From: Thermoflexibacter ruber
GTDB taxonomy: Bacteria > Bacteroidota > Bacteroidia > Cytophagales > Thermoflexibacteraceae
Assembly (NCBI RefSeq): GCF_900113045.1
Contig: NZ_FONY01000011.1
Span: 62,001-126,000, forward strand
Length of the DNA stretch: 64,000 nt
Direction of reading: 5' to 3'
Each line of letters begins with the position of its first letter. Position 1 is the stretch's first letter. The notes under the pieces are model-generated. The model did no database searches and was not told the origin of the DNA. It saw only the letters and a program-made list of their open reading frames with translations. The translations under genes were made by a program, and so were the position numbers. Positions 38,951 to 54,456 of this stretch are shown in pieces.

Positions 38951-39080
38951 TATTAAATTGCTAATTTATAATTACTAATTAATAAACTTTAATTGGTATT
39001 ATAAATTAGGGTTGTTTTTCATCGTTTAGATTTACAATTCATAATTAATTAGTCATTAGTAATTAAAATATATAAATAAC

Positions 39081-40750: not shown

Positions 40751-41821
40751 TTATAATGATTCATTCAAGAATTCTTTCAAAACTTCTGAAATTTTTTCTG
40801 TTTCTACTAAAAATCCGTCATGCCCATAAGGTGAATCTATCTCCACATATTGAGCATCAGGAATATGCTTTGCCAAAAACTGCTGCTCGAAAGGCGGGAA
40901 CAGAATATCAGAAGTAATGCCTATTACTAAGGTCTTTGCTTGGATTTGATGAAGGGCTTTTTCTTTGCTTTCTCTTCCTCTTCCCACATTGTGAGAGTCC
41001 ATTGCCTTGCTTAATATCAAGTAAGACAGTACGTTAAATCTTCTTACTAACTTTAAGCCCTGATAGCGTTGGTAGCTTGAAGCCTTGAAGTCATCAATTT
41101 TTTCGTTAGTTTCTTCACTTTGGCGGCTTTCATAAGTTTGATAGTTGCGATAAGAAAGCAAAGCGATTGACCTTGCAGCACTTAGCCCTGCCTGCCCTGC
41201 GTCGTGCCTGCGCTCACTCCAAGTCGAGTCTGCATAAATTGCCAAACGTTGCGATTCATTAAAAGCAATTCCCCATGGTGAATGTTGGGCATTAGTAGCC
41301 AATAAAACTAATTTTTTAAACAAATGAGGTTGCAAAATTGCCCATTCCATGGCTTGCTGACCACCCATAGAGCCACCAATGCAAAGTGCTATTTCTTCAA
41401 TGCCCAAATGCTGACGCAATAAGTCGTGTGCTTTTACCATGTCTCTAATCGTAACTTGAGGGAAATCAATAAAGTAAGTTTCATTAGTTATGATATTGTG
41501 TGTAGTAGGGCTGGAAGTGCCGTAGCAAGAACCCAAGATGTTGGCACACACAATAAAATATTCTTCAGGATTGATTAAAAAGCCTTCACCTACCAGTCCT
41601 TTCCACCAATCTGCTACATCAGCATTGGCAGTGAGGGCGTGGCATACCCAGACTACATTGCTTTTCTCGGCATTGAGTTTGCCGTAAGTATGATAAGCAA
41701 TTTGTAATTCGGGTAACACTGCTCCACTTTCTAATTCAAAAGGTCTTCTATAGTGGAAAAACTGCGTTTTCACTGAGGTTGCATGGCTTATTTGGTTAAA
41801 GGAAAAGGTCGGGTTTTGCAT
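40751..41821 (-). CDS. metX: Homoserine O-acetyltransferase MetX
   Basis: MetX acetylates homoserine with acetyl-CoA in methionine synthesis. The 356-residue alpha/beta hydrolase has the nucleophile S151 in ALCIGGSMGGQQAMEWA, the oxyanion region VCHALTANADVADWW, and the catalytic Asp and His in GITSDILFPP and SPYGHDGFLVE. It works with MetY, encoded 152 bases upstream on the same strand. A structured element between the two genes may set its level relative to metY. An acyl preference of acetyl versus succinyl cannot be read with certainty; the pairing with MetY supports acetyl. Confidence 0.95.
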   Translation of the reverse strand: MQNPTFSFNQISHATSVKTQFFHYRRPFELESGAVLPELQIAYHTYGKLNAEKSNVVWVCHALTANADVADWWKGLVGEGFLINPEEYFIVCANILGSCYGTSSPTTHNIITNETYFIDFPQVTIRDMVKAHDLLRQHLGIEEIALCIGGSMGGQQAMEWAILQPHLFKKLVLLATNAQHSPWGIAFNESQRLAIYADSTWSERRHDAGQAGLSAARSIALLSYRNYQTYESRQSEETNEKIDDFKASSYQRYQGLKLVRRFNVLSYLILSKAMDSHNVGRGRESKEKALHQIQAKTLVIGITSDILFPPFEQQFLAKHIPDAQYVEIDSPYGHDGFLVETEKISEVLKEFLNESL

Positions 41822-41973: not shown

Positions 41974-43296
<1,323 letters not shown>

Positions 43297-43331
43297 TTAT
43301 GAGTTATGAATGGAATTACTAATTTTTAATT

Positions 43332-43378
43332 ACTAATTACTTTGATGTTTACAAGAAATCAACTCTTTAGTAATTAGT
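43332..43378 (-). other. Hairpin between Cys-rich leader frame and metY
   Basis: ACTAATTACT (43332-43341) and AGTAATTAGT (43369-43378) form a perfect 10-bp stem, with a possible inner TTGAT/ATCAA stem. It lies 60 to 106 bases upstream of the metY start and about 30 bases after the leader stop codon. The same AT-rich words recur in other gaps here, so function is uncertain. Confidence 0.4.
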
Positions 43379-43404
43379 CATTATGAATTGGTAATTAAAC
43401 GGGA

Positions 43405-43530
43405 TTAACAGCAACAACAACACATCATACAGGATTGTATGTGCGCTTGTGTAGAAAGAAAGATAAGAGAAAAGAGTCTTTGTGAGAAAGACAAGTCAGG
43501 ATTAGAAGATGTAGAAAGCGAATTTTTCAT
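43405..43530 (-). CDS. 41-codon leader peptide ending in a Cys/Met cluster (candidate sulfur attenuator)
   Basis: On the minus strand an ATG at 43530 opens a frame of 41 codons that ends at TAA (43405-43407). The product begins MKNSLSTSSNPDL, has a hydrophobic middle (RLFSLIFLSTQAH), and ends IQSCMMCCCCC. Six of the last eight residues are Cys and two are Met. The start lies 13 bases after the SAM aptamer's closing helix and the stop 132 bases before metY. A run of codons for the very amino acids the operon serves is the mark of leader peptides that sense charged tRNA; polycysteine leader frames are known from mycobacteria. No SD sequence precedes the ATG, as usual in this phylum. Whether it is translated is not shown. 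Confidence 0.6.
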   Translation of the reverse strand: MKNSLSTSSNPDLSFSQRLFSLIFLSTQAHIQSCMMCCCCC

Positions 43531-43542
43531 GTTTTGTAATTA

Positions 43543-43650
43543 ATTTATATTTCCCTAAACTTAAATTTGGGTTAGGATGTAGCACCTTGCGTTTTGGCGT
43601 AGGTTGCTAAGGGTTCAGTGAGCCTAATCTCTCCCCCTTTCTTTATAAAT
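43543..43650 (-). promoter_or_regulatory. SAM-I (S box) riboswitch of metY-metX
   Basis: Read on the minus strand, the region has the SAM-I core in order: GGGGGAGAGATTAGGCTCAC, TGAACCCTTAGCAACC, then AAGGTGCTACATCC. ATTTAT (43645-43650) and ATAAAT (43543-43548) can close P1. SAM-I aptamers bind S-adenosylmethionine and switch methionine genes off. I see no terminator stem with a T tract directly after the aptamer; the leader reading frame begins there instead, so the expression platform may act through translation or through that frame. Confidence 0.88.
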
Positions 43651-43697
43651 CAACTACCTTTGGTGGAGTTGATAGAAAAGTGTTTTTCTTTACAACG

Positions 43698-43728
43698 CAA
43701 ATAAATAAGATAAGTTTTAGAATTGCAA
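43698..43728 (-). promoter_or_regulatory. Candidate promoter of the metY-metX leader
   Basis: On the minus strand TTG (43726-43728) precedes TTTATTTG (43698-43705) by 20 bases, close to the -33/-7 pattern although the -7 box departs from TAnnTTTG at one base. Transcription would start near 43690, about 40 bases before the riboswitch. Confidence 0.4.
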
Positions 43729-43803
43729 GATTTTTTGGTAAATTTTGAGTAATACGAAAAATTATTGTGGGACATCATAAAATTTAACTTCGTTTTGATA
43801 TAC

Positions 43804-43829
43804 TATCTTTGAAAAAGCTGTTATCTTTG
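43804..43829 (+). promoter_or_regulatory. Two -7 boxes upstream of carB
   Basis: TATCTTTG occurs twice, at 43804-43811 and 43822-43829, each an exact TAnnTTTG match. Transcription from the second would start near 43836, giving carB a leader of about 265 bases that contains a terminator-like hairpin. Confidence 0.5.
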
Positions 43830-43961
43830 CAAGATTTTTTAAGGAATATGCCTTCGTCTTTTGATGAAAGGAAATAAAAATAATACTTTTCACATCAAAG
43901 CAAATGTGTCAAAAGTGAAGATACCTACAATTACCGATTTTAATAAAACGAATAAATACAA

Positions 43962-53624: not shown

Positions 53625-54376
53625 AGAACAATTATTATATTCCCATTTATTTTCAGACTAATTCTTACAGTGCTGAAAAGTTAGTAGGTGGCATCTTGTT
53701 TTTTTCATCAGAGCAAATTTTCTTAAGAATTGCGGAGAGTAAAATCAAAGCAACGGCTCAAATAGGCAATGCCAGCAGTGTCTTAGTAATACGGCAAACT
53801 GTAAGAATGCTTTTAGAAAAAATAGAGAGCCAAAAGCACTTATTTACGCATCAATATTTAGAATATTTACATAACTATAGCAATGGTGTAGTCCAATTTG
53901 GGGAGGCAAAGCCCTTACATTTATCGTCACAAAAGTTTAGCGACTTTGCTTTCAAATTTTTGGGTGAAAGAATAAACTTTCATAAAGTTGTAAACCAAAA
54001 GATAAATAACATCAAAAAGTTTTCAGAAAAAATAGTTAGTCCTTATATTTTTCAAGTCCCTTCTTTAAAAAAATTATATAAAGTTACTCTAAAAATTCTT
54101 GTAAATAAGGAAGAAAGTTTTATTATGCAAAGCATTGATTTTCAAAACTCAATGAGGACGATAAAAGAAGCCCTTAATTTATATGGGAAAATAATAAAAG
54201 AATTAGAGAGCCAAGCAAATGAAAAAAATAAGTTTGCTTTGGTTGTTGAGAAACCTACCGAAGACCAGCAAAAAGAAATGCTATTAAATGACTTTCAAAT
54301 TAAAAATCCAAATTGTGAAATTATTAGTTTGAACGTACTTGATGAAAGACTCAAAGAAATAGTGATGTACTTTTAA
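53621..54376 (+). CDS. Partner protein of the HipA-like kinase (DUF3037-like position)
   Basis: The 251-residue protein overlaps the kinase gene by four bases (ATGA), so the two are translationally coupled. The N-terminus, YYIPIYFQTNSYSAEKLVGG then ILFFSSEQIFLRIA, resembles the start of DUF3037 proteins, which begin with a similar beta-strand pair (phrased xNVGVxLF in that family); the match is loose. The rest is helical and charged, with no motif I recognise. No signal peptide or membrane span. By position it is the regulator, substrate or scaffold of the kinase. Confidence 0.6.
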   Translation: MKNNYYIPIYFQTNSYSAEKLVGGILFFSSEQIFLRIAESKIKATAQIGNASSVLVIRQTVRMLLEKIESQKHLFTHQYLEYLHNYSNGVVQFGEAKPLHLSSQKFSDFAFKFLGERINFHKVVNQKINNIKKFSEKIVSPYIFQVPSLKKLYKVTLKILVNKEESFIMQSIDFQNSMRTIKEALNLYGKIIKELESQANEKNKFALVVEKPTEDQQKEMLLNDFQIKNPNCEIISLNVLDERLKEIVMYF

Positions 54377-54408: not shown

Positions 54409-54456
54409 TCCTCTCAAAAATTAGTAATTATTCATTACCCATTAGTAGCTACTAAC

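Follow-up and report, generated by a model that had tools for sequence, protein, structure and literature searches.

A SAM-I aptamer followed by a cysteine-tailed leader frame, a probable two-input regulator of sulfur assimilation genes in Thermoflexibacter ruber and its relatives

The leader of metY-metX in Thermoflexibacter ruber is likely, though not beyond doubt, to be a two-input RNA regulator, in which a SAM aptamer gates the translation of a short leader frame and the Cys/Met tail of that frame senses Cys-tRNA, the two acting in series. With less assurance, and only somewhat in favour of the idea, we extend this to much of the Cytophagales/Sphingobacteriales/Saprospirales side of Bacteroidota, where opening of a Cys-sensing leader would be the only platform of SAM-I. 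A serial SAM-then-Cys gate would there span the whole sulfate assimilation and homocysteine pathway, with an A-rich initiation signal built into P1 for ribosomes that ignore Shine-Dalgarno sequences. Support for joint sensing of SAM and cysteine is comparative only, as neither ribosome stalling nor any effect of cysteine or SAM has experimental backing. The locus lies in a stretch of 64,000 nt (hereafter the window), and its features are listed in Table 1.

Table 1. Positions of the features of the metY-metX locus in the window and of the other leaders in the genome
Feature	Position	Strand	Basis or remark
SAM-I (S-box) aptamer	43542..43651	minus	Rfam RF00162, 72.5 bits, gathering score 44.4
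Aptamer P1, 5' strand	~43651-43644	minus	
Aptamer P1, 3' strand, UAUAAAUU	~43549-43542	minus	
Leader frame, 41 codons, ATG to TAA	43405..43530	minus	Sequence and ORF list
Putative sensor tail CMMCCCCC, final eight leader codons	43408..43431	minus	Sequence
Spacer, 132 nt, leader stop to metY start	43273..43404	minus	
metY, O-acetylhomoserine aminocarboxypropyltransferase	41974..43272	minus	TIGR01326, 684 bits, E 5e-206
metX, homoserine O-acetyltransferase	40751..41821	minus	NF001209 above cut-off; TIGR01392 E 7e-112, below cut-off
Other three SAM-I/polycysteine leaders with genes	L420 3458-7907 and L419 4808-13707		Contigs C73 and C64

In the covariance model search the score of the window aptamer far exceeded the curated RF00162 threshold, and its core columns are invariant in 31 aligned aptamers, itself included. 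The leader ATG lies 11 nt past the aptamer end and opens a frame encoding MKNSLSTSSNPDLSFSQRLFSLIFLSTQAHIQSCMMCCCCC-TAA, with the C-terminus IQSCMMCCCCC; no NCBIfam family matched this peptide. The first-pass annotation had described six Cys and two Met in the final eight residues of a frame between a SAM-I aptamer and metY, and both the composition and the position, the latter from the RF00162 and TIGR01326 matches, were confirmed. Elsewhere in the window (53717-53828, plus strand) a very weak SAM-I-like match was obtained (20.2 bits, E 0.077), which is probably due to chance.

The 5.5 Mb genome contains five SAM-I elements, four of them strong (70.1-74.5 bits). Behind each of these four an ATG 8-12 nt downstream opens a frame of 35-44 codons, and the frames end in CCCCCCC, CCCCCC, CMMCCCCC and CCCCCC; only the tail is common to all four leaders, which are otherwise unlike. 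The string (TGY)5-TRA occurs exactly four times in the genome, always behind a SAM-I aptamer, and the backward-read control pattern had no match in the same 5.5 Mb. Apart from metY-metX, the leaders precede PAPS reductase (cysH)-cysD-cysN-TauE, a NirA-family sulfite/nitrite reductase with genes for uroporphyrinogen-III methyltransferase and a siroheme synthase N-terminal domain, and a TonB receptor with a putative sulfate transporter of YeiH type behind it, the labels NirA and YeiH being best matches that score under the curated cut-offs. Cys-run frames are thus found ahead of cysteine and sulfate assimilation genes, namely cysH-cysD-cysN and the sulfite reductase with its siroheme genes. Going by these assignments, the four loci together account for the greater part of sulfate activation, sulfite reduction and homocysteine formation. 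The earlier proposal of SAM and Cys control at metY-metX is supported by comparison, and the arrangement extends beyond these two genes. The fifth element (contig C50, 71313-71444, in G000; L005) is weaker (49.2 bits) and lies upstream of a GNAT acetyltransferase gene; it has a GATAAG-type P1, and no Cys-tailed leader frame was found behind its aptamer.

To follow the arrangement across the order, 153 SAM-I loci (the best-scoring aptamers, from 83 of 148 genomes) were collected regardless of any frame, and with a further 40 from the class and 20 from the rest of the phylum the survey reached 213 loci. One locus with a cut contig (L016) was excluded from the order census, and the phylum sample leaves out 30 SAM-I loci (L269-L298). 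A Cys frame was scored when an ATG or GTG 3-14 nt past the aptamer opened 12-80 codons with at least three Cys in the final 12 residues, a rule that was fixed only after examples had been seen; a locus with eight Cys but a start 15 nt off (L022) was scored as frameless. The P1 of the 31 aligned aptamers is either CTTATC/GATAAG or TTTATA/TATAAA. Among the matches listed for the order, 57 of 94 loci with a TATAA-type P1 carry a Cys frame, where dinucleotide shuffles lead one to expect 0.87; a start is in range in 81 of the 94, and 37 have no Cys tail, 13 of these without a start in range. Loci with a GATAA-type P1 have a Cys frame in 5/56 cases (0.07 expected) and a start in range in 12/56, and other P1 types have a Cys frame in 1/3 (0.02 expected), again among the matches listed. 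The class sample gave 2/7 for TATAA-type and 0/33 for GATAA-type aptamers, and no Cys frame was found at the 20 phylum loci outside the class, so that the whole survey holds 65 Cys-tailed frames among 213 loci (all among the matches listed). At least one Cys leader is present in 42 of the 83 census genomes of the order, with the same restriction to matches listed. When 85 TATAA-type leaders are read out of frame, 2 satisfy the Cys-tail rule in each of the two wrong frames. The excess over shuffles is no formal probability, because the rule was set post hoc and the loci share ancestry, and P1 type and Cys tail are not strictly tied, since five GATAA-type aptamers have Cys tails.

The two kinds of aptamer were also compared by the genes that they precede. 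Among the matches listed for the order, 36 of 56 GATAA-type loci lie upstream of metH, as identified by a protein motif, and a Cys frame was found at only 1 of 41 metH loci compared with 28 of 40 metY-like loci; the frame at the single metH locus (L260) is weak and probably accidental. According to Pfam, the 65 Cys-tailed loci include 32 of metY type, 8 PAPS reductases, 7 amino-acid permeases, 3 HPP, 2 NIR_SIR, 2 TonB plug, 2 alpha/beta hydrolases (metX-type) and 1 homocysteine methyltransferase. The tally of tail-less loci, which covers 87 of 145 available proteins, those of the order only, and counts L022 as tail-less, comprises 37 homocysteine methyltransferases, 16 metY-type proteins and 16 alpha/beta hydrolases.

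Organism names could be attached to 80 metY loci retrieved using the window MetY, a set that is not independent of the order census because some loci overlap. A covariance model derived from the aptamer alignment detected 73 SAM-I aptamers in 72 of these loci, and 53 of the 73 are followed by a Cys tail (same tail rule, start 3-16 nt). The frames end in ...RMCMCCCCC in Pontibacter, ...GICCCCR in Rufibacter, ...ICMCCCCACCC in Chryseolinea, ...QMCCCCM in Thermonema, ...RMCCCCACCC in Hymenobacter, ...LMCCCCC in Lewinella, ...CCCCCCFN in Haliscomenobacter, ...CICMCCCC in Mucilaginibacter and ...CMCCCIQ in Pedobacter. Start spacing, frame and Cys/Met tail are also kept in Saprospiraceae, Mucilaginibacter, Pedobacter and Hymenobacter, the last with GTG starts. 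Two of these genera were sampled more deeply; among Mucilaginibacter-type leaders 28 of 30 pass the tail rule, as do 27 of the 28 Pedobacter-type leaders found (30 loci, two of which yielded no leader by the pattern used). The sister species, the sole other SAM-I-bearing genome of the genus, retains the aptamer and a ...MMCCCCCC tail ahead of metY, and its frame body and spacer differ from those of the window. Relatives of Algoriphagus, Cyclobacterium, Pleomorphovibrio and Lunatimonas have a frame with only 0-2 Cys, in Sphingobacterium the frame ends in ...TRMR with one Cys among its final twelve residues, and behind four GATAA-type aptamers ahead of metY in the named set no frame was found. 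Conservation of the Cys/Met codons, start and stop in relatives, which had been put forward as a check, was borne out in the TATAA-type loci of the order, in four of the five SAM-I loci of the genome itself, in the named metY set and in both genera. Loss of the codons in close relatives would have spoken against the idea, and such loss concerns some lineages only, namely relatives of Algoriphagus, Cyclobacterium and Sphingobacterium. As a separate observation, several Hymenobacter-like genomes (L196, L200, L212, L214, L217, L251, L265 and others) have GTG-start Cys leaders in a conserved CCGTG context, and several of these leaders precede amino-acid permeases, possibly a regulon for cysteine or methionine uptake.

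The tails consist of 45.5% Cys and 6.0% Met and the frame bodies of only 1.4% and 1.1%, and therefore Cys would be the main sensed residue and Met a secondary one. Cys is encoded by TGT (260) and TGC (118), and Met and Ile interrupt the run, the frame being nevertheless held. In the final two codons of the Mucilaginibacter leaders, TGT and TGC were counted 16 and 13 times and 15 and 14 times, with one exception each; in these aligned tails the base changes and the amino acid is retained. Differences in the frame bodies are distributed over codon positions 1/2/3 as 262/211/195 and 447/420/527 in two genera (related pairs, not independent). Since change is nearly equal at the three positions, selection does not act on the peptide as such, and the variation is like that of a leader and unlike that of a working protein. 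A comparison of indel lengths in the frames rests on pairwise alignments that are full of arbitrary gaps and does not bear on whether the frame is held.

In S-box switches, binding of SAM stabilises P1. The start codon lies 7-12 nt past the aptamer in 59 of the 65 Cys leaders, and A is found at positions -12, -13 and -14 in 71, 68 and 77% of them, nearly all of it contributed by the 3' strand of P1. According to the available text, translation in Flavobacterium johnsoniae initiates better with A at -3, -6, -12 and -13, A at -12/-13 being a measured positive determinant, and the mRNAs with such residues lack Shine-Dalgarno sequences (PMC6847099). As the A residues at -12 to -14 come from P1 and A favours initiation, a SAM-bound P1 would hide the initiation stretch. 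P1 thus probably gates the leader start, which is inferred without structure probing. The earlier description of aptamer and frame as stacked in tandem holds for their adjacency; they are probably not merely stacked but in series, as P1 can mask the start.

Aptamer and leader might be independent, with a P1 that does not mask the start, some other platform for the aptamer and a separate, adjacent cysteine attenuator. Riboswitch-free cysteine leaders do exist elsewhere, as far as the accessible parts of two reports tell (PMC1262725; PMC8632094), and some TATAA-type aptamers lack a frame; however, the window leader yielded no terminator, the start spacing is narrow with the A-rich stretch inside P1, and presence of the frame tracks P1 composition (TATAA-type against GATAA-type loci of the order, among the matches listed). 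We regard independence as unlikely, although it is the strongest of the competing accounts. Still less probable is an arrest peptide or a metal or redox sensor, in which the tail would act as a nascent peptide, through metal binding or oxidation in the exit tunnel, and not through Cys-tRNA supply. Cys plus Met is a metal-binding composition too, the tail sits at the extreme C-terminus, and some Hymenobacter tails add Arg-Met repeats. Against this, tails vary freely (CICMCCCC, CMCCCIQ, CCCCCCC, CCCCACCC) without a fixed arrest motif, the bodies are unconstrained, the tail is only just leaving the peptidyl-transferase centre, and the target genes serve the formation of sulfide and homocysteine.

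That the frames look translatable and that most end with at least three Cys would also suit a small Cys-rich protein acting in trans and merely co-regulated by the riboswitch, but the four copies in one genome are alike in the tail only and body differences are spread equally over the codon positions, albeit in pairs that are not independent; we give this very little credence. The least credible account is that of chance, in which TGY triplets would be nothing but a simple repeat mistaken for a frame. The tract TGTTGTTGT is of low complexity, and in the order a SAM aptamer was found upstream of (TGY)5-TRA at just 4 of 30 loci examined, most strings lying elsewhere. It is refuted by the counts, both the four strings in the T. 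ruber genome, all behind SAM-I, and the 57 frames where 0.87 were expected (among the matches listed), and TGT/TGC interchange and Met/Ile interruptions leave the frame intact.

For a regulator in which the SAM aptamer opens a Cys-sensing leader, the step after the leader was sought in the spacer. No terminator-like site was detected in window positions 43200-43850, and a terminator with a U-run and a competing antiterminator is absent in the window. A long A/U hairpin is located at ~43397-43315, and the fold of 43427-43262 is no better than shuffles (z -1.20). In Pedobacter metY leaders (L389-L413), three successive conserved hairpins lie around and after the leader stop, the first inside the Cys codons, the second CTTCC/GGAAG and the third CCCG/CGGG, with two-sided changes in the third and no U-run. 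Mucilaginibacter has a different conserved hairpin past the stop, also with two-sided changes and likewise lacking a U-run; no hairpin past the stop common to several clades was found, Pedobacter and Mucilaginibacter each having their own type, and the Hymenobacter and Saprospiraceae alignments gave nothing clear there. A TTAGTAATTAGTAATT-like intergenic repeat makes up part of the metY spacer (8 window matches, 0.28 expected), and sites of this repeat were located at 43314-43382, 38963-39064 and 54421-54436 of the window.

Pairing of the Cys tract was analyzed as well. Sequestration of the metY start by the tract, as in erm-like systems, does not hold up as a general mechanism and was rejected: across 50 metY leaders, duplex energy was -9.07 with the own start, -8.95 with the starts of others (mean z -0.05) and -9.37 for a shuffled tract. 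Pairing of the tract with positions +15 to +55 past the stop favoured the own locus only marginally (z -0.25), which is not convincing. In a Chryseolinea-like group, a CAGCAACA-like segment faces the Cys codons, which is no more than a lead. An unconstrained fold of the window leader pairs the 5' part of the aptamer with the leader body; over 64 loci this pairing gave no locus-specific signal (z -0.06 and 0.02) and was discarded. From what remains, Rho-dependent termination is inferred to be the best candidate for the output step, followed by translational control. As far as the available texts go, mycobacterial cys leaders without a terminator have been proposed to undergo Rho-dependent termination (PMC1262725), and such termination has been reported at a riboswitch-uORF of Mycobacterium tuberculosis (PMC12810186).

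The proposed regulator would work as follows. The SAM-I aptamer, whose sole visible downstream element is the leader frame, would be the first sensor. With SAM bound, P1 would hold the A-rich stretch 10-18 nt ahead of the leader start, the place at which ribosomes of Bacteroidota read the initiation signal, and the leader would remain untranslated; at low SAM, P1 would open and the leader would be translated. The Cys(/Met) tail would be the second sensor, at which the ribosome would halt when Cys-tRNA is scarce and otherwise pass on to terminate at the stop. The state of the ribosome would then set the expression of the downstream sulfate assimilation or homocysteine gene, the last step probably relying on leader RNA structure and/or Rho and not on an intrinsic terminator. 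Low SAM together with low Cys would be expected to give full expression. Genome comparison establishes the aptamer, the constant spacing to the start, the maintenance of the frame, the Cys/Met tail and the gene context. P1 gating, SAM binding, SAM-dependent translation of the leader, stalling, the response to cysteine, the on/off direction and the last step are inferred, without transcript, footprint or ligand data.

An intrinsic terminator is a common expression platform of SAM-I in Firmicutes, though not an obligatory one. The elements described here resemble SAM-I (S-box, RF00162) in their high score, conserved core and position before sulfur and methionine genes, and differ in that the window leader has no intrinsic terminator, that P1 is followed first by the beginning of a Cys-tailed leader and that P1 consists of A/U only (TTTATA/TATAAA). 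The leader shares control codons of the relevant amino acid with trp-type attenuators, here the CMMCCCCC tail, while their U-run terminator and antiterminator are not seen in the window. Polycysteine leader ORFs of mycobacteria and other Actinobacteria were reportedly described by Canestrari in 2020. Such leaders are known from these organisms in the accessible text of PMC1262725, and they are called leaderless in a title cited by PMC9094748 and PMC13236596. With the mycobacterial leaders ours share, as far as these texts extend, a short frame, a Cys run at the stop, a place before cysteine or sulfate genes and the lack of an obvious terminator. In contrast to the mycobacterial ones, which that title calls leaderless and for which the same texts mention no riboswitch, these frames lie directly 3' of SAM-I, belong to another phylum and often include Met; the window leader starts just past a 110-nt aptamer and would not count as leaderless provided that its transcript, whose 5' end is unmapped, contains the aptamer. 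In Rhodobacterales the leader frame uORFC-8-2 ahead of cysS likewise has tandem Cys codons that are conserved, and ribosome-mediated attenuation has been proposed for it; in the text at hand, it differs in having two Cys codons, which lie within the frame, an intrinsic terminator and no riboswitch (PMC8632094).

Riboswitch-controlled uORFs of M. tuberculosis, B12/ppe2 (PMC11260477) and Mbox/rv1805A (PMC12810186), similarly have a translated small ORF between switch and main gene and a translational platform, and in the available parts of these reports they are not described as amino-acid sensors, whereas the leader tail here looks like a second sensor. The feature expected of a riboswitch-gated uORF, a start within reach of the closing stem, is present (59/65 Cys leaders, and 11 nt in the window). 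A SAM riboswitch at metA of Sinorhizobium meliloti is also predicted to target a first AUG that precedes a second element; that switch belongs to the SAM-II class, and no cysteine leader is mentioned in the portion of the source consulted (PMC9373788). In the open full-text literature, which leaves out subscription papers and bioRxiv, neither a cysteine leader behind a SAM riboswitch nor one in Bacteroidota was found, in agreement with the first-pass annotation, which knew of no tandem case in this phylum. Within that literature, what is new is the proposed serial fusion, at regulon scale, of two kinds of element that are each already known.

If the proposed regulator is real, a single mRNA leader would read first SAM, the end product of the pathway, and then cysteine, a branch product, as charged tRNA, forming a natural serial two-sensor gate. 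This would apply to a large set of environmental bacteria in which no cysteine-responsive control by RNA was found to have been described, and would explain how small RNA elements could tune sulfate assimilation there. Many unannotated small genes are predicted, at least one in each of 42 of the 83 census genomes of the order (among the matches listed). It would further show that a translational riboswitch is workable in a phylum without Shine-Dalgarno pairing.
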